Origin: Lysobacteraceae bacterium
GTDB taxonomy: Bacteria; Bdellovibrionota; UBA1018; JAGTJX01
Direction: 5' to 3'
NCBI GenBank assembly: GCA_023657465.1
Contig: JAGTJX010000003.1
Location: forward strand, 499,889 to 563,888
Length of the DNA stretch: 64,000 nucleotides
Numbering within the stretch: position 1 is the first letter of the stretch; every line of letters starts with the position of its first letter. A program made the position numbers and the translations under genes. This document shows positions 29,654 to 38,737 of this stretch, one piece after another. The notes beneath the pieces were generated by a model, which saw only the letters and a list, made by a program, of their open reading frames with translations, was not told the origin of the DNA and did not search any database.

Positions 29654-29687
29654 AATTTTCCTCTAGTCAAAATGATTGGAGGAAAAA

Positions 29688-31091
29688 ATGAAGCGACGGA
29701 TCGCTGTGTTTTTGGATGCGGATATTAAAAAAGAAACCTTTTCGTTTGATGAACTAGTGATCAGAACCAAGGAGGTGTTCGATAAAAACGGAATGCCAGC
29801 AGTGATAACGCTGATTTTAGAGTGGATGGATGGTGATCTCTGTGACTCACTGACAGGAGTGCAGACAAAAGAGTCATTAGCGAGCATCAACGTAAAACCC
29901 TGCTGTAAAACTCCCTACTTTGTCAGATCGAGCAGAGAACCAAGACGTATTGATTCTACAATAGGAAAAATCAAATTCCACTGGATGAGGCTCAAATGCA
30001 AAAACTGCAAGGAATCGTTCATTCCACTAAGACAGTTTTTAAACGTTAAGCTCTACACGTCGCATACGTTAGAACTCGAAAAAATTGCATGCGAGACTGC
30101 AAGTCACCAGAGCTACAGACGATCAGCAAAACACATGACAGATATTGGTGGCAACCCACTCGGAAAAAGTAAAATCCATACTTGGGTTCAGAAGACTGAC
30201 TCTGCTCACTTAAAGCTGGAACAGAAAGAGCTCGTTACAATTGTTGCAGATGGAACTGGGTATCCCAGGTTCAAGACGAACGCTCAAAAAGAGGATGAGA
30301 AGAAAAACCCAAAACGAGATGCTGACAATAGACCTCTTGAACAAATTCGAGTGATTCTAGGGATCGACAAGCACGGCAAAACGATTCCCATGGGAGTCTT
30401 CAATGAAGAAAAATGGAACGAAATTGGGAGACTCGTAAAACGGGCTAATCACCATCCCAAGCTGAAATCTAAGCCCATAGCAGAGCTCTTAGTGAGTGAT
30501 GGAGAACTAGCCATTGAACGAGGACTAGGAAAACTAGCAAAGACCCAGCAGCGCTGCCAGTGGCATCTGACGTATGATCTGAAGTCTGTGATGAAGTACC
30601 AGGATGAAGCAAATAACGAAGAAACCAGAAAAGTGAAAGACCAGCTTCATGAAATCATGAGAATCCCGCTACCCAACGAACCAAGAGACAAAGTAAAAAC
30701 CGAAGAAATTCTAAATCTAGAGGTCTCGGTATTTAATGCGGAAAGGCAAATGAATGCACTCGTGAAAGATCTGAAAGAAAAGCAGTATTTTCAAACTGCG
30801 ACATATGTAGAGAATGCAAAAGCAAAGCTCTTTAACTATGTCAGAGTCTGGATCAGGACGGGGGATGCTCCTCCGAAAGTGAGCTCCATCATTGAGCGCA
30901 TGATGAGAGAAATAAAACTACGACTCAAACGAATCGGATGCAACTGGAGTCCCAAGGGAGCAGCACAGATGACGAAGATCATTCTGAAGAGATTTACGAA
31001 TTCAAATGAATGGGAAAAATATTGGAGTGATACACTCAAACTAGACGGGAAAATGAAGATTGAATTTGCTGGAGCTCAGTTTGTGAATTGA
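29688..31091 (+). CDS. ISLre2-family (UPF0236-type) transposase
   Basis: DDE transposase of 467 residues. ATG 29688 has the strong ribosome-binding sequence GGAGGA. A Cys-type N-terminal region is present (NVKPCCKTPYF, RLKCKNCKESFIPLRQF). The catalytic triad candidates are Asp in VTIVADGTGYPRF, Asp in AELLVSDGELAIERG and Glu in SSIIERMMREIKLRLKRIG, followed by the typical NWSPKGAAQM. QRCQWHLTYDL matches the family CxWHL-type motif. The frame is full length with no stop, so the element may be active. Confidence 0.87.
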   Translation: MKRRIAVFLDADIKKETFSFDELVIRTKEVFDKNGMPAVITLILEWMDGDLCDSLTGVQTKESLASINVKPCCKTPYFVRSSREPRRIDSTIGKIKFHWMRLKCKNCKESFIPLRQFLNVKLYTSHTLELEKIACETASHQSYRRSAKHMTDIGGNPLGKSKIHTWVQKTDSAHLKLEQKELVTIVADGTGYPRFKTNAQKEDEKKNPKRDADNRPLEQIRVILGIDKHGKTIPMGVFNEEKWNEIGRLVKRANHHPKLKSKPIAELLVSDGELAIERGLGKLAKTQQRCQWHLTYDLKSVMKYQDEANNEETRKVKDQLHEIMRIPLPNEPRDKVKTEEILNLEVSVFNAERQMNALVKDLKEKQYFQTATYVENAKAKLFNYVRVWIRTGDAPPKVSSIIERMMREIKLRLKRIGCNWSPKGAAQMTKIILKRFTNSNEWEKYWSDTLKLDGKMKIEFAGAQFVN

Positions 31092-31356: not shown

Positions 31357-32508
31357 ATGCCCCATAAAAGACCTAGGACTGTTCACGATCTCATCAAGAA
31401 AAAACTCAAATTCAACAGAGTTCTGGCATTGCAGGGTGCGAGACAAACTGGAAAAAGTTTTTTGGCTAGAGAAATACTCTCAAAAGAACTGCAAAAATCA
31501 TTCTATGTTTCTCTTGATTCAAAATCAGAACGAGAATTTGCCGAGAGATCTCCTCAAACCTTCCTCACAAAGCTATCTGAGCATTGTCCGGTCATGATCG
31601 ACGAGGCTCAGAAAGCTCCATCTATTTTTGACGAAATAAAACTACAGGTTGATGTTAATACAGCTCCAGGACAGTACATCCTATTGGGTTCAACCGAGTT
31701 TTCTAGAGAAGTACTAGTCAAAGAGTCTCTGACTGGGCGATTAGGCAGAATTAGAATTTTTCCAATGAGTTTTAGAGAGGCATTAGGTACTAAACATGCC
31801 AAGCCCAGTCGCACAGCTTTCCTCAAACATCTGGATCACGGTGGTATGCCTGGAATTACCTTCGTCAGAGATGCCACAGAAAGAAAATCTCTTGTTCAAG
31901 ATTGGCTGAACACCTTGTGCTTCCGGGATCTTCTGCAATTTAAAAAGCTAAAACTCGATGGTGAATTAGCTCTTGAGATTTTTGAACAAGTCTCTGTTTT
32001 GGAGAATCCTACTCTTGCAGCAATCTCAAAAGCCACTCACACATCTGCTAGACGCGTTGAATCTCACCTCAAGGCATTAGAGCAACTTTTTGCGATCTAT
32101 AGACTTCATGCACATTCGTCGATGAGATCGAGCAAACCTATCTTCCTTCCTCTGGATTCAAGTATCGTGACTTACTTTAGTGGATCCTTTAGTCGAAAAG
32201 CTCAAGTCTCACTACTCAATGAGAGGTTATGTCTATCTCATTACTCTGGAGATCCTCACGCAAAATTTTTTTATTACCATTCACGCTCAAAAAGAATGAT
32301 TCATCTCCTAGAAGAACAAAAAAATAAAAAAATTGCATTTCAGATTTTAGAATACGAAGACTTCTCAGGAGTCGATTTAGAACTCATGAGAGTTTTTTTG
32401 GCGCAACATGAAGGATACCAAGGAACTGTTTTCGCACCGATTACTAGGCAAGAAAAAATACATTCAATTAAACTCAAACCATGGGAAGCTCTCCTCGTTT
32501 TAGATTAG
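31357..32508 (+). CDS. AAA ATPase with DUF4143 domain
   Basis: A 383-residue ATPase of the AAA_14/DUF4143 group. Walker A is LALQGARQTGKSFLAREIL, Walker B is PVMIDEAQKAPSIFDEI, and sensor region YILLGSTEFSREVLVKES is followed by LTGRLGRIRIFPMSFREALG. The C-terminal part has a winged-helix-like segment (LAAISKATHTSARRVESHLK) and a nuclease-like tail ending LKPWEALLVLD. Members are common, often horizontally moved, and their role is not established. It is a single gene just outside the insertion sequence, with an AT-rich promoter region at 31300-31356. Confidence 0.82.
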   Translation: MPHKRPRTVHDLIKKKLKFNRVLALQGARQTGKSFLAREILSKELQKSFYVSLDSKSEREFAERSPQTFLTKLSEHCPVMIDEAQKAPSIFDEIKLQVDVNTAPGQYILLGSTEFSREVLVKESLTGRLGRIRIFPMSFREALGTKHAKPSRTAFLKHLDHGGMPGITFVRDATERKSLVQDWLNTLCFRDLLQFKKLKLDGELALEIFEQVSVLENPTLAAISKATHTSARRVESHLKALEQLFAIYRLHAHSSMRSSKPIFLPLDSSIVTYFSGSFSRKAQVSLLNERLCLSHYSGDPHAKFFYYHSRSKRMIHLLEEQKNKKIAFQILEYEDFSGVDLELMRVFLAQHEGYQGTVFAPITRQEKIHSIKLKPWEALLVLD

Positions 32509-32580: not shown

Positions 32581-34197
32581 ATGGATCATGAACTCTTCGA
32601 GTGGCTCCTCCTCCTAGGACGCTGGCTCCACATCGTTGTCGGAATTGCGTGGATTGGAAACTCGCTTTTCTTCATGTGGCTCGATCGTACTTTCGAATTC
32701 AACGCAGAATCCAAGACTCCTGGACACATCGGAGATCTCTGGATGGTTCATGGCGGCGGATTCTACAAAGTTGAGAAACTCCAAATGGGGCCTACCAAAG
32801 TCCCTGCACACCTTCACTGGTTCAAATGGGAATCCTACTGGACTTGGATGAGCGGAATCTTCCTACTCGGAATGATCTTCTACGCAGGTAACGGAACATT
32901 CCTCCTCGACTCTTCTGTTTCATCGATTACTTTCATGCAAGCATTGGGACTCAGCTTCGCGTCTCTCTTAGTGTCTTGGTTCTTCTACGACTTCTTGTGG
33001 GAATCCAAACTCACAAAAACTCAACCAATCCTAGGTCACATCCTCACTCTCGCTTGGTTCGGTGGAATGGTTTATTTCCTCTGTCACACGCTCAGTGGCA
33101 GAGCTGCCTACATCCACATCGGTGGAATGCTGGGGACTTGGATGACTGCGAATGTGTTCCTTCGAATCATCCCTAGGCAAGTGTTGATGGTCGAAGCATC
33201 GAAGCGTGGCGAACCCGTCAATCAAGAATGGGGCAAAAACGCTAAGAACAGATCCACGCACAACACTTACTTCACGCTACCTGTGATCTTCATCATGCTG
33301 AGCAACCACTTTCCTTCCACTTATGGGAATAAGTACAACTGGATCATATTACTGCTGATGAGTGCAGCAGGAGCAGCAATCCGTGAATTCTTCGTCACGA
33401 GAATCAAGAATCCACCGAGATCGAAAGTCTTCGGCGCGATTGCAGTAGCAATCATTCTCTTCGTTATTTTCTTCAGTCGCGAGAATACAGGCTCTGCAAA
33501 AGTAGCTACACAGAATCATCATGAATCCGAAGCCATAACATCACCTACAGCAACGATTTCAGGAACAGGTTCCATCTACGGAATTGTGGGCTTCTCTGGA
33601 ACTATCCCACAATCTGAGAAACTCCTCCTTCCACTGGTCTGCACACCAGACAAAAAGGCCGATACTTACGCAAACAAAATCATCATCAACAAAGATGGCA
33701 TGATAAAAAACGCACTCGTCAGAATCATTGACGGACTAGGTAAACAAGTCTTCACTGACATCCCATCTCAACCTGTCGTCATCGATCAGAAGAGCTGTCA
33801 ATATGAACCCCGAGTAGTTGGTGTCAGAGTCGAGCAGAAGGTTGAGTTCTTAAACAGCGATGATACCTTCCACAACGTGCGATCACTTTCTAAGAATAAT
33901 GAGAACTTCAACGAGGCCATGCCTGCTAAGAACGACCGAATCACTAAGGTCTTCAACAAGCCTGAAATTTTCGTTCAATCCAAATGTAGCGTGCATCCTT
34001 GGATGAGTGCTTCTATTGCAGTGATGGATCACCCCTATTTTAGTGTTACGAATGAAGCTGGCTTTTATGAGATTAAGAATATACCCCCAGGCAACTACAT
34101 GGTCGAAGTCTGGCATGAAGTTTTCGGCACTCATAAAACTCGAATTGGAATCAAAGCAAACCAAAGTGATAAAATCGATTTTGGATTCAAAAGATAA
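32581..34197 (+). CDS. puuD: Membrane urate oxidase (PuuD-type) fused to a cupredoxin-like domain
   Basis: Inner-membrane enzyme of 538 residues expected to oxidise urate to 5-hydroxyisourate. Residues 1-300 match the PuuD/Urate_ox_N domain: LHWFKWESYWTWMSGIFLLG, SGRAAYIHIGGMLGTWMTAN, and NRSTHNTYFTLPVIFIMLSN, with about eight membrane helices. Known PuuD ends in a cytochrome c domain, but no CxxCH is present here. Instead residues 335-538 form a beta domain with candidate type 1 copper ligands His431 (DDTFHNV), Cys469, His472 and Met475 (CSVHPWM), followed by a carboxypeptidase-regulatory-like strand set. The copper site would replace the heme as electron acceptor (inference). The next gene, hiuH, starts 9 bases later. 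Confidence 0.88.
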   Translation: MDHELFEWLLLLGRWLHIVVGIAWIGNSLFFMWLDRTFEFNAESKTPGHIGDLWMVHGGGFYKVEKLQMGPTKVPAHLHWFKWESYWTWMSGIFLLGMIFYAGNGTFLLDSSVSSITFMQALGLSFASLLVSWFFYDFLWESKLTKTQPILGHILTLAWFGGMVYFLCHTLSGRAAYIHIGGMLGTWMTANVFLRIIPRQVLMVEASKRGEPVNQEWGKNAKNRSTHNTYFTLPVIFIMLSNHFPSTYGNKYNWIILLLMSAAGAAIREFFVTRIKNPPRSKVFGAIAVAIILFVIFFSRENTGSAKVATQNHHESEAITSPTATISGTGSIYGIVGFSGTIPQSEKLLLPLVCTPDKKADTYANKIIINKDGMIKNALVRIIDGLGKQVFTDIPSQPVVIDQKSCQYEPRVVGVRVEQKVEFLNSDDTFHNVRSLSKNNENFNEAMPAKNDRITKVFNKPEIFVQSKCSVHPWMSASIAVMDHPYFSVTNEAGFYEIKNIPPGNYMVEVWHEVFGTHKTRIGIKANQSDKIDFGFKR

Positions 34198-34206
34198 GGA
34201 CGATAC

Positions 34207-34530
34207 ATGATTAGCACACACATTCTGGATACAAGCATAGGAGCTCCGGCCTCAGGAGTCGCAGTCAAGCTCGAGAAACAAGAGGGCAAGGACTGGAGCA
34301 CAATTAGCTCCGGATTCACCAATGCTGACGGGAGACTCCAGTTTGATGTAGAGATCCAACCAGGCAATCACAGAATTGTTTTTGAGATTGAAGATTATCT
34401 GAAGAAGTCCGGCAAGGAATTCTTCTTCTTAAACGTTCCAGTGAGTTTCAAAATCGAAAACACAAAACGCAATTACCATGTTCCCTTACTTTTAAACCCA
34501 TTCGGATTCTCAACTTACCGTGGCAGTTAA
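34207..34530 (+). CDS. hiuH: 5-Hydroxyisourate hydrolase (transthyretin-like)
   Basis: A 107-residue enzyme hydrolysing 5-hydroxyisourate to OHCU (2-oxo-4-hydroxy-4-carboxy-5-ureidoimidazoline). The signatures are all present: N-terminal STHILDTSIGAPASGVAVKL with the active His, TNADGRLQF, and the C-terminal tetrapeptide YRGS that closes the active site. Length fits the cytosolic bacterial type. It sits between the urate oxidase and the large ureide protein, matching reaction order. Its last 11 bases overlap the GTG start of the next gene. Confidence 0.96.
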   Translation: MISTHILDTSIGAPASGVAVKLEKQEGKDWSTISSGFTNADGRLQFDVEIQPGNHRIVFEIEDYLKKSGKEFFFLNVPVSFKIENTKRNYHVPLLLNPFGFSTYRGS

Positions 34531-37500
34531 ATCATCTTACCTCAGCTTCTTTGATCAACTGGAGAGTCTCACTCGAGATCAACTCACACGTGTGCTCAAG
34601 CAGCGCACTTTGGATCGGGCGTTTATCGATCAGAGGACTAACGCTTGCGCAGAACTCAATAAACTCCTTCATGTAGACATCTTGGACACCTACTACGAAA
34701 CCGTCATTGGTCATGAAGACGGCAATGGAAGAATCGTCATAGGACCAAGATCTGCTGAATACACAAAGCCAATGGGTAAACCCATTGCCGATCTGCCCGA
34801 GCACCTGAAGGGCTATCACATCACTACATTCAGTCCTCCTAGCAATGAGAAAGTCTGTACGACTGCACTCAGTGTACTGGGCATCTCACTAAGAGATGAA
34901 CCAGAACTAGTCTCAGAACTCATTGATAAGTCGCAGGAACGAATCAAATGGGGAGCTGACTTCGAAGACTCACTAGTTCCAACCAAAGAAACTCTCGCGA
35001 TTGCTCAAGGCAATCTCAACAAGTGTTACTCGCAGAAAATTCATAGAGCAGCTCTTCCTATCAAGCGTTTACCTGGAATTGCGCTCTCTCATCACCTGGA
35101 TGAATTCGCTAAGCATGTATTTGAGCACTGGAGAAACCCAGAGGCTCTCACGTTCTATATTCCTAAGCTAGAGAACGAAGAAGAAGCGGCCTATATCCAC
35201 TCCGTGGTATCGAGTGCCGAGAAGTTACTGAAGGAAGAACACTCTGAGTACAAACTTGGATCAATCCGTCTCATCATTGTGTTTGAGAATCCAAGACTCA
35301 TCTACCGAGCGAATGAAGTGATCGATGCGCTTTACCCCTACTTCGCTGGCGCCTCACTGGGTTGGCATGATTACTTGGCTGCTACCGCTCGTATTTTCAA
35401 AGAAGATCCAAACTACAGAATACCTGCGAAGTCAGATCCCAACATCGTCATCAGCCACATCAAGTCTTCTCATGAACTCATTGCTCATGTCGTAGGCGGT
35501 CGCGGCGGTCTTGCGATTGGCGGAATGTTTGGTGTGATTCCTGAATCTACTGAACTTTATAGCCCTGAGTTTCAAGTCGTGATGAAGGGCTTCATCCGTG
35601 ATGTCATCACTCAGCTGAGACGCGGACTGATAGGCTTCTGGGTCGCTCATCCTGCTTTGATTCGATACGGTGTTGCACTCGTAGAAGTCTGGAAACAGAA
35701 AGATCCTAATAAGCTAGAAGAACTCGTGATTGAGTTACTGAAGAAAGAACATCAGGCAGATATCCTGGAGTTCCTACGCGCTCCCGATGTCGCAAGCCTG
35801 AGTGCCACTGAACCTCTCTATCCAAGATCACGTAGTGCTAATAATGACCCAAAAGAAATCCGTTACAACGTCAGGCAATCCCTCGCCTATCTCACTGAGT
35901 GGCTTACAGGTAATGCAAACGCAGCCCTTCCTGCGCAACTGGGTGGAAAATCCGTACAAGTTCTAGATGATCTCGCCACTGTCGAGCGATCGCGATGGCA
36001 AGTCTGGCATGAGATTCATCACGGGAGATTCGAACTCTCTGAGTTCTTAAGGATCGTTCATCAAGAAATGAGATTCATTCATAAACCGACACAAGCGATG
36101 AATATCCTCATCAAGCTCATGACAGATGAATTCCCAGTAGAGAGTGCGACTCAGCTCCTTATCCCCGCACTTCGCGCCAACCACGAAGTGACTTTAGCTC
36201 CCCACATCCAAAGATTCAACGAGTACTTCTCTTCTTGCGGAAGCATGAGATTCGCAAAGTCTCTCTCAAGCAATATCTCTTTAGATATCACTCAAGCGTC
36301 GATGATCGTGATGAGCTTCTCTCAAGAAGAAATCATCGAAGCCGCAAGCTTCCACGGTGATATCGGAGAGAATAAGAAGAACCTAGATCTCACCGCAACC
36401 CAGGAACAAGCACTCGTACTCAAGGAAGGCGATGATAAGAGAGCAGAGCTGAAGAAGCTCGGCGTGAAGTACTTCAAGAAGTACGGATTCAAATATCTCA
36501 TTTCTGCTCAAGGTAAGACGAGCGAGCAGATCAAAGCCAATCTCGATCAAAGACTGAATGGTGACAAGAAGACTGAGCTTGAGAATGCTAGGAAGGCGCT
36601 CTGGGAGATTGCACAGAAGAGACTTGCATCCATCGCAGAAAAAGATTTAAAAGGTAAAATCGAACAAGCGCTCAAAAAGTACGAAGTCACTGGCGCACAG
36701 ATCTCCGTATCAAGTGCCAAAAACGCTATACAGACTCTCTCCTTCGGTAGCACTACCACTGATACTTGGTTTGAACTTGCATCCCTAAGCAAAACCATCG
36801 CTACAGTGTTCTCTCTTGAGTACTTCAAGAAGCACAATATTTCTCTCACTTCATCTGTGAACGCTCTCTTCGAGGGCACAGAATCTCCTTACAGGATTCC
36901 ATCAGGCGATGCAGTGACCCTCACTCATCTCCTCAATCACAGTGCTCTCAACATGCACTACGTGAACGGAGTTCCACGAGCCAAAGAAATGCCAGAGATC
37001 TCTAAATGGCTGAAAAACATCAAAGTGGCAAACGAACCCGGTTCCTCATTCCAATACTCAGGTGGAGGATTCCTCGTACTTGAACACTTAATTGAAAGCC
37101 TAGAGAAAAAGTCCATTCGAGAGCTCACCCATGAGTTCTTCCAAACTTTGGGGATTCAGAATATCTCCTTTGATCAGACGAAGCTTGCAGAGCACACCGA
37201 AACCAGAGACTACAAAATGTTCCCAGCGTTTGCAGCAGGAGCTATTGGCCAAGCAAGTAGCATGACTCTCCTACTTGAGAAACTCACAGTTGCTTACCAC
37301 GACCCGCTCGCCACTGGTCCCATCTCTCACGAGACAGCAGTTCTCATGCTTCAAGATACAAATACTTCAAGTCAGTCCTTCATGGGCGTGAATATTGGTC
37401 TTGGAGTATTCATTGCTGAAGCGGGACGAAACAGACTTGCGATTCACCAAGGTGCAAACGACGGTTACCGCTGTCTCTTCGTATACTGCTACCGAGGTCC

Positions 37501-38737
37501 AAATCAGGGCTTAAGTTTTACAATCCTCTGCCAAGGCGATAACAACGGAATGCTTTTCGTTGCTCGTACCGCTCAACTCATCCTCACAGAACTCAGAATG
37601 AGTGGAATCGATACGTATCAATTTAAATCTGATTTTAATTCCTCGAATTTCAAGCAAGAAGAGATCGTCAATCTAGGATACAAGAACCTCGTATTCTCTG
37701 CATTCAAGCCTGATCTCCCTGAAGCCATCACAAGAGATTATCTAGAAGATCCACTCTCTCGTTACAATCACGCCATCGGTGCGAAAATCATCGAAGTCAG
37801 TAATCAACGATTCGCCAGGGCTGAAAATCTCATCTCTCCTTACGAGCCTGTATTCGATCCTGAACTCTACGGAGCTCAAGGGAAGATCATGGATAGCTGG
37901 GAGAGCGTGAGACATAATCCTAAACCTACGGACTGGATGATCTTGGAACTTAAGAAACCATCAGCAATCTCGACTGTCTCCTTCTCTACGAAGTTTCATA
38001 ACGGCAATCATCCTTCACATGCGATGATCGATGGTCTTGTGCCTAAGACTGCACTTGATGGTCACGCAATCAAATTCGTAAAAACGACAGATTCCAAGAC
38101 TGTGTTCAAGCAGATCAAAGTCTCGATGTTCCCAGATGGAGGCCTGACCCGTCTAGGTCTTTACGGAGATGATTTCCCTGCTGAACTGATTAAGTCTTTC
38201 TCATACCCTAATCCTATCCCTCACTCGAAGAAGCCTTTAGCTCCGAAGTACACACCTACTCCTGAGATGATCGAAGAAAATTGGAAGAGGCATCCTAAGA
38301 ACACACCAGTAGATGTTGCATGCAGTGCTTACGGTGGGACGATCGTCAGAGCTTCTAATGAACACTATGGACCTGCATCACAAGTCATCTCACCTTATCC
38401 ACCACTGGATATGTTTGATGGTTTTGAGTCTGCACGGAGTAGAACTCCAGGACACTTCGAAGAACTCGAAATCAAACTCGCTAGAAAATGTAAAATCAAC
38501 ATGATCGAAATTGATTACAAATTCTATGTGAACAATAATCCAAGAGAGCTCAAGATTTCAGCTAAGATCCATGATGAATGGAAAGAGATCGTTCCTCAGA
38601 CTTACGTGAAGCCCTTCGCTGCAAACAAGATTCAGCTTCGGATCAATGAGTCACAAGAAATTGAATTCTTAAAATTCACTGTGATTCCTGACGGTGGGAT
38701 GAATAGACTCAGAGTCTATTCCACTTCATTAAATTGA
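34520..38737 (+). CDS. Four-domain ureide-catabolism fusion: malate synthase-like, OHCU decarboxylase, serine hydrolase-like, allantoicase
   Basis: A 1405-residue cytosolic protein starting at GTG 34520, overlapping hiuH by 11 bases. Residues 1-540: malate synthase family, with KWGADFEDSLVPT (143-155), Mg-type Glu256 (IIVFENP), Asp284 (GWHDYLAATARIF), GFWVAHPAL and catalytic Asp484 in DDLATVERSRWQVW. Residues 560-706: OHCU decarboxylase, with CGSMRFAK (573-580), His612 in FHGDIG and YFKKYGFKYLISAQGKTSEQ. Residues 707-1025: beta-lactamase/DD-peptidase-like, with SxxK Ser755-Lys758 (SLSK), Tyr846 (YSG) and His976 (HQG). Residues 1040-1405: allantoicase with both repeats (RFARAENLISPYEP, and TIVRASNEHYGPASQVISPY). 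No allantoinase is seen, so the hydrolase domain may open the allantoin ring (inference). Confidence 0.9.
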   Translation: MAVKSSYLSFFDQLESLTRDQLTRVLKQRTLDRAFIDQRTNACAELNKLLHVDILDTYYETVIGHEDGNGRIVIGPRSAEYTKPMGKPIADLPEHLKGYHITTFSPPSNEKVCTTALSVLGISLRDEPELVSELIDKSQERIKWGADFEDSLVPTKETLAIAQGNLNKCYSQKIHRAALPIKRLPGIALSHHLDEFAKHVFEHWRNPEALTFYIPKLENEEEAAYIHSVVSSAEKLLKEEHSEYKLGSIRLIIVFENPRLIYRANEVIDALYPYFAGASLGWHDYLAATARIFKEDPNYRIPAKSDPNIVISHIKSSHELIAHVVGGRGGLAIGGMFGVIPESTELYSPEFQVVMKGFIRDVITQLRRGLIGFWVAHPALIRYGVALVEVWKQKDPNKLEELVIELLKKEHQADILEFLRAPDVASLSATEPLYPRSRSANNDPKEIRYNVRQSLAYLTEWLTGNANAALPAQLGGKSVQVLDDLATVERSRWQVWHEIHHGRFELSEFLRIVHQEMRFIHKPTQAMNILIKLMTDEFPVESATQLLIPALRANHEVTLAPHIQRFNEYFSSCGSMRFAKSLSSNISLDITQASMIVMSFSQEEIIEAASFHGDIGENKKNLDLTATQEQALVLKEGDDKRAELKKLGVKYFKKYGFKYLISAQGKTSEQIKANLDQRLNGDKKTELENARKALWEIAQKRLASIAEKDLKGKIEQALKKYEVTGAQISVSSAKNAIQTLSFGSTTTDTWFELASLSKTIATVFSLEYFKKHNISLTSSVNALFEGTESPYRIPSGDAVTLTHLLNHSALNMHYVNGVPRAKEMPEISKWLKNIKVANEPGSSFQYSGGGFLVLEHLIESLEKKSIRELTHEFFQTLGIQNISFDQTKLAEHTETRDYKMFPAFAAGAIGQASSMTLLLEKLTVAYHDPLATGPISHETAVLMLQDTNTSSQSFMGVNIGLGVFIAEAGRNRLAIHQGANDGYRCLFVYCYRGPNQGLSFTILCQGDNNGMLFVARTAQLILTELRMSGIDTYQFKSDFNSSNFKQEEIVNLGYKNLVFSAFKPDLPEAITRDYLEDPLSRYNHAIGAKIIEVSNQRFARAENLISPYEPVFDPELYGAQGKIMDSWESVRHNPKPTDWMILELKKPSAISTVSFSTKFHNGNHPSHAMIDGLVPKTALDGHAIKFVKTTDSKTVFKQIKVSMFPDGGLTRLGLYGDDFPAELIKSFSYPNPIPHSKKPLAPKYTPTPEMIEENWKRHPKNTPVDVACSAYGGTIVRASNEHYGPASQVISPYPPLDMFDGFESARSRTPGHFEELEIKLARKCKINMIEIDYKFYVNNNPRELKISAKIHDEWKEIVPQTYVKPFAANKIQLRINESQEIEFLKFTVIPDGGMNRLRVYSTSLN

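Follow-up and report, generated by a model that had tools for sequence, protein, structure and literature searches.

The stretch of DNA analysed here (64,000 nucleotides, referred to as the window) carries on its forward strand a urate operon of three genes in the order puuD, hiuH and a fusion gene, the last encoding a malate synthase-like (MS) domain, an OHCU decarboxylase domain, a serine hydrolase domain and an allantoicase (Alc) domain on one chain. The first gene (32581–34197) encodes a PuuD-type membrane urate oxidase (Urate_ox_N, 2.5e-105), and the second (34207–34530) encodes the 5-hydroxyisourate (HIU) hydrolase HiuH (Transthyretin, 1.9e-33; TIGR02962, 124 bits, above the cut-off of 87.45). 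The fusion gene (34520–38737), identified by ORF calling, Pfam matches and homologues, begins with a GTG that overlaps hiuH by 11 bp and runs for 1405 codons with zero internal stops; upstream of the GTG, only about eight further codons are open (open frame, 1413). The first-pass annotation had reported a link between the fusion and hiuH, with the urate oxidase next door, and this layout bears it out. Elsewhere in the same genome, adenine deaminase and xanthine dehydrogenase genes adjoin each other, so a route from purine to urate is present.

The C-terminal end of PuuD, which is a cytochrome c in the described enzyme (PMC4562309), is replaced in the window by a cupredoxin-like tail with a Cys/His/Met copper-ligand pattern and no CxxCH; in a PDB search this tail weakly resembles a type 1 copper protein (E=0.002). 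When PuuD genes of the fusion loci and of comparison genomes were scanned for motifs, 34 of the 53 were of the long cupredoxin-like type and 12 of a short type with a haem motif. Directly 5' of the urate operon lie an AAA_14 ATPase gene (31357–32508) and a transposase-like frame with no Pfam match (29676–31091).

The four domains claimed for this 1405-residue protein were all recovered in the claimed order by Pfam, and NCBIfam and PDB searches gave the same families. The malate synthase A-like domain (residues 1–524; 34520–36091) contains an MS_TIM-barrel match (PF01274, residues 207–401, 8.5e-18) and an MS_C match (residues 445–503, 1.8e-4) that falls slightly under the cut-off (22.4 against 23.1 bits) and exceeds it in five relatives. 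It shares with malate synthase A (AceB, TIGR01344; E. coli 3cuz) the TIM barrel, the C-terminal domain and the catalytic residues, as R183, E256, D284 and D484 align with the catalytic Arg, the two Mg ligands (Glu and Asp) and the Asp base, and its modelled barrel matches 3cv2/3cuz with a TM-score of 0.74 over the target. It differs in its N-terminal attachment to ureide enzymes and in scoring 78 bits (131–143 bits in relatives) against an equivalog cut-off of 594.5. The OHCU decarboxylase domain (residues 525–704; 36092–36631; PF09349 at residues 591–703, 2.8e-19; PDB match 2q37) aligns with UraD over its C-terminal two thirds and retains the catalytic His and Glu (H612, E629–Q630, with R701), whereas its N-terminal third is divergent, its position is internal and its score is 70.4 bits against equivalog cut-offs of 124–139.4. 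The allantoicase domain (residues 1046–1405; 37655–38734) has the two tandem repeats of the known enzyme that had been claimed for it (about residues 1087–1217 and 1253–1401; PF03561 in two stretches, 3e-51; TIGR02961; 1o59 and yeast 1sg3), but it is C-terminal and reaches 189.2 bits against a cut-off of 277.9. Lying below the curated equivalog cut-offs, the fused domains are divergent members of their families.

Between the OHCU decarboxylase and allantoicase domains lies a serine hydrolase domain of the beta-lactamase/DD-peptidase fold (residues 705–1045; 36632–37654; PF00144 at residues 712–1016, 9.6e-22). Its motifs are SxxK (S755-L-S-K758, nucleophile and general base; 36782–36793), YSG (residues 846–848; 37055–37063) and HQG (residues 976–978; 37445–37453), which replaces KTG. 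Ser, Lys and the whole YSG motif are kept in 68/68 representative relatives, as are the His and Gly of HQG, while the Gln is kept in 67/68. The catalytic residues of the MS and OHCU decarboxylase domains, including Asp484, His612 and E629, are likewise invariant in all 68, so the key residues named beforehand (Asp484, His612, SxxK and YSG) are both present and conserved. The fusion had no match at E<=0.01 to the allantoinase models TIGR03178 (AllB) and TIGR03212 (PuuE).

The fusion is a widespread, conserved family that is not limited to the window genome. Among 97 related genomes we found 15 independent long homologues with 46–58% identity, and the complete ones (1,533–1,612 aa) have an unchanged domain order. 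Full-length relatives are usually 1,500–1,690 aa long, the window copy being the shortest; among the 291 Bdellovibrionota genomes sampled, about 50 have one, and relatives are also present in one Planctomycetota clade. An alignment-based scan of 84,980 species returned 132 contigs with a confirmed fusion match; the same kind of contig scan with the window protein alone as query found zero relatives. The 80 matches listed of these 132 come mostly from Bdellovibrionota (Bacteriovorax, Halobacteriovorax, Oligoflexia and others), with Planctomycetota making up the remainder. The survey of genomes for the same order, which had been proposed at the outset, thus found it in one frame in many assemblies of both phyla. 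The chance that separate genes were joined here by an error of assembly or annotation is negligible: nothing was found to support it, and independent assemblies from two phyla share the domain order in one frame. In two genomes the fusion occupies two adjacent frames (L121:4652-9260 and L125:3036-7671, broken inside the OHCU decarboxylase and inside the hydrolase), which may reflect a natural split or a sequencing frameshift.

In a tree of 69 sequences (FastTree, root unknown), the Planctomycetota fusions fall together in one supported clade within the Bdellovibrionota, a position that would fit, tentatively, a single transfer. The Bdellovibrionota operon is typically puuD-hiuH-fusion, often beside xanthine dehydrogenase genes; in Planctomycetota, hiuH is on the opposite strand from the fusion.

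Converting urate to malate takes urate oxidase, then HIU hydrolase, OHCU decarboxylase, allantoinase and allantoicase, followed by a ureidoglycolate step and finally malate synthase. Recognised families in the operon cover all of these except allantoinase and the ureidoglycolate step. The earlier proposal that the three genes lead from urate through glyoxylate to malate therefore holds in its overall direction but not as complete cover, because the window genome has no recognised enzyme for either step. The serine hydrolase, for which the first-pass annotation offered no role, is the one domain without an assigned job and the best candidate for the missing allantoinase.

Other members of Bdellovibrionota carry the pathway as a split operon, puuD-allB-alc-OHCU decarboxylase-hiuH-DUF6986. 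When each part of the split operon is paired with a part of the fused one, only two pairs fail to correspond: allB against the hydrolase, and DUF6986 against the MS domain. We counted these genes in the 291 Bdellovibrionota genomes, taking AllB above its curated cut-off, and found allantoicase in 74, AllB in 22 and the hydrolase domain in 50. Of the 74 allantoicase genomes, 49 carry the fusion but lack AllB and 21 carry AllB but lack the fusion; a single genome has both, and the other three show fragments at contig edges. The exclusion has a Fisher p of 2.8e-14, a value that ignores relatedness and serves as a guide only. Many of the genomes are metagenome bins, in which single absences carry little weight. 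Both operon types coexist inside families f2, f13 and f15 and genera g19 and g15, so the exclusion is not the trace of one ancestral lineage split. Among the three fragment cases, G010 has an AllB fragment, G167 has an AllB cut by the contig end next to allantoicase, and G327 has an allantoicase piece with fusion-type scores near a contig start. G313, the only genome with both systems, has a broken fusion locus whose pieces lie on two strands.

Joined frames were also seen for other genes of the pathway: allantoinase and OHCU decarboxylase form one 617-aa frame in G313 (L124:6877-8730), and PuuD and AllB a single 875-aa frame in G049 (L130:1338-3965). Ureide operons of the fused and of the split type can have as neighbour a conserved protein, about 300 aa long, that has no Pfam, NCBIfam or PDB match (L031:11876-12790, L036:6466-7353, L099 and L114).

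Two further searches bear on the absence of known allantoinases. AllB above the cut-off was found in 0 of 50 fusion genomes reached via named contigs, a set that includes Planctomycetota and partly overlaps the census, and PuuE above the cut-off in none of the 16 fusion genomes searched. Sub-threshold AllB matches were annotated in six fusion genomes; they are dihydroorotases above the pyrC cut-off in the window genome, G011, G036, G085 and G018, and in G091 the nearest family is dihydroorotase at 218 bits, under that cut-off. On this annotation, the dihydroorotase-like matches were rejected as the missing allantoinase. A guanine deaminase beside the fusions L022, L030 and L033 was also considered and rejected, as the L030 protein best matches guanine deaminase (281 bits, under the model cut-off).

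The hydrolase domain looks like a working enzyme, judging from its conserved motifs and its AlphaFold model (pLDDT 91.8). The nearest folds, each with probability 1.00, are esterases, R61 DD-peptidase, class C beta-lactamases and D-amino acid amidase, none of the solved structures listed reaching 20% identity, and SxxK, YSG and HxG stand in the correct fold for the serine beta-lactamase-like superfamily. With that superfamily (PF00144; R61 DD-peptidase, Ochrobactrum D-amino acid amidase, family VIII esterases) the domain shares the fold and the SxxK, YxG/N and HxG motifs, and it adds the conserved HYVxG, FPxxAAG and HQGANxGxR, which mark a separate subfamily confined to the fusion. No free-standing hydrolase domain was found in the 291 genomes: nothing scored well there except the fusion frame and those pieces of it that were frameshifted or cut by a contig edge. 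The matches to the profile that come next score 58–70 bits, and two weak ones beyond the 50 genomes are generic hydrolases. Its distribution is that expected of an allantoinase, present where allantoicase occurs and AllB and PuuE are absent. Beta-lactamases and DD-peptidases hydrolyse cyclic or peptide amides, so that opening the hydantoin amide lies within the chemistry of the fold. Taken together, the exclusion with AllB, the kept active site, the confident fold, the restriction to the fusion and the amide precedent suggest that the hydrolase domain is most likely a third, serine-type allantoinase.

The features observed for the fusion (its composition and domain order, its conservation and operon, its catalytic residues, and the fact that it and AllB exclude each other) allow the following scheme to be proposed. 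PuuD and HiuH would release OHCU, which the OHCU decarboxylase domain would turn into (S)-allantoin. The beta-lactamase-fold domain, replacing AllB, would then open the hydantoin ring of allantoin through a serine acyl-enzyme to give allantoate, and the allantoicase domain would split allantoate into ureidoglycolate and urea. Ureidoglycolate might yield glyoxylate spontaneously or by another activity, and the malate synthase A-like domain would, in the family, condense glyoxylate with acetyl-CoA to malate. We consider it probable that the fusion is a four-domain ureide-degrading enzyme that includes a serine-type allantoinase step, the activities, above all that of allantoinase, being predicted from sequence. 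With marginally less confidence, though still on the side of likely, we propose that the hydrolase domain represents a third class of allantoinase, unrelated in structure to the other two and using covalent serine catalysis, which would have displaced AllB within a single chain from OHCU to malate (minus the ureidoglycolate step) and spread from Bdellovibrionota to Planctomycetota.

Some observations count against the allantoinase reading, and other roles for the hydrolase have to be weighed against it. The domain has no close characterised homologue; to our knowledge, no member of the PF00144 superfamily acts on allantoin. The co-occurrence of both systems in G313, even with its fusion locus broken, also weighs against this reading, as does the relaxed look of the MS domain in the window. 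Genes of dihydropyrimidinase or hydantoinase type might do so instead, such as the second sub-threshold AllB match in G018, a dihydropyrimidinase, or the amidohydrolase near the L042 fusion. The hydrolase could then be a scaffold or act on an unrelated substrate as an esterase or peptidase, in keeping with its closest folds (esterases and DD-peptidases), while a dihydropyrimidinase- or dihydroorotase-like amidohydrolase elsewhere opens allantoin. We regard this as unlikely, since the active-site Ser, Lys, Tyr and His are invariant and the domain scores well in the fusion protein only. Moreover, some fusion genomes, such as G011, have a single AllB-profile match, a dihydroorotase, and split-operon genomes hold similar sub-threshold paralogues besides their AllB.

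The ureidoglycolate step offers the orphan domain a second gap, for the ureidoglycolate lyase AllA is missing as well, having been found neither in any of the 16 fusion genomes searched nor in the census fusion genomes. The hydrolase might accordingly handle ureidoglycolate, or allantoate, with allantoin opened by an unlinked enzyme that was not recognised. This appears more improbable still than a scaffold or esterase role: AllA occurs in only 3 of the 291 genomes and is missing from the other 288, including most split-operon genomes with AllB. Being rare in both operon types, AllA is absent in a way that does not track the fusion, whose exclusion is with AllB and not with AllA, and ureidoglycolate decays spontaneously. 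A substitute for ureidoglycolate lyase is thus not favoured, and the assignment of the hydrolase to allantoin remains the one we prefer.

DUF6986, the other item without a counterpart, was found in 24 of the 291 genomes, none of them with the fusion. The three AllA-bearing genomes are of the split type and lack DUF6986. These patterns hint that DUF6986 relates to the ureidoglycolate step or has a malate-synthase-like role. When the profiles of DUF6986 and the fused MS domain were compared, they had only a weak core in common. DUF6986 proteins close the split ureide operon at L040:8657-10039, L038:9588-10937 and L126–L133.

The MS domain of the window copy is a special case within the family. 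It is about 80 residues shorter than that of its relatives (about 84 aligned positions are gapped), having lost some 50 N-terminal residues, the KIVQVKW segment and other internal segments. The fusion family shares the GNGC and (M)(D/E)DxATAExSR motifs with malate synthase A, and GNGC is changed in the window. At columns at least 97% conserved in the 68 relatives, the window MS domain is changed or lost in 47 of 211, against 21 of 212 in the next most divergent relative; departures in the other domains of the window copy are few (4/35 in OHCU decarboxylase, 3/48 in the hydrolase and 2/57 in allantoicase). Identities between the window and its nearest relative L041, compared with those between L041 and L048, are 58% and 68% for MS, with a similar gap for OHCU decarboxylase (53% and 62%) and little gap for the hydrolase (55% and 58%) and allantoicase (57% and 59%). 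The contrast in departures between domains indicates that constraint on the fused MS domain is relaxed in the window copy. The hydrolase and allantoicase parts still appear to be under constraint, as would suit a protein that goes on serving ureide breakdown.

This bears on the claim of the first-pass annotation that the MS part removes the glyoxylate made by the pathway and gives direct carbon gain. For the family as a whole, the claim is credible. For the window species, direct carbon gain is uncertain, because the domain is diverged and shortened and the genome encodes a canonical malate synthase A elsewhere (736 bits, above the cut-off). The claim taken literally has in its favour the four retained catalytic residues and a barrel that still resembles malate synthase A, and we rate it as possible but somewhat less likely than not, given the departures, the gapped positions and the ordinary enzyme.

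Fusions of consecutive purine-degrading activities are known with two domains, including plant OHCU decarboxylase–HIU hydrolase, Bacillus PucL, and OHCU decarboxylase with allantoate amidohydrolase or PuuE. The present fusion differs in having four domains, among them malate synthase and a serine hydrolase. As to the proposed reaction, the known allantoinases are AllB, a binuclear metal amidohydrolase, and PuuE, a metal-independent enzyme of the polysaccharide-deacetylase fold (PMC9863593). The fused hydrolase has no sequence or fold relation to either and would share with them only the reaction, which it would carry out by covalent serine catalysis; PuuE is a precedent for the replacement of AllB by an unrelated enzyme. 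The first-pass annotation knew of no described protein of this composition. The open-licence literature searched indeed yielded no description of the four-domain fusion, of a serine/beta-lactamase-type allantoinase or of DUF6986; as a feature unique to this genome, however, the fusion does not stand, its relatives being widespread. What appears to be new, going by that literature, is the combination of four domains and the assignment of a serine-type allantoinase; all four domain families were already known.

Dozens of genomes lack a recognised enzyme for the allantoinase step, and our analysis names a specific candidate for it. The fusion is a rare case in which almost a whole catabolic branch lies on one chain, and the sister genomes with split genes provide a natural control. 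If the assignment is true, a serine-dependent class would join the metal-dependent AllB and the deacetylase-type PuuE, the only enzymes from which the reaction is known. It would also mean that enzymes of the penicillin-binding-protein fold have been recruited to nitrogen metabolism, and that an annotation as "beta-lactamase" need not imply drug resistance.
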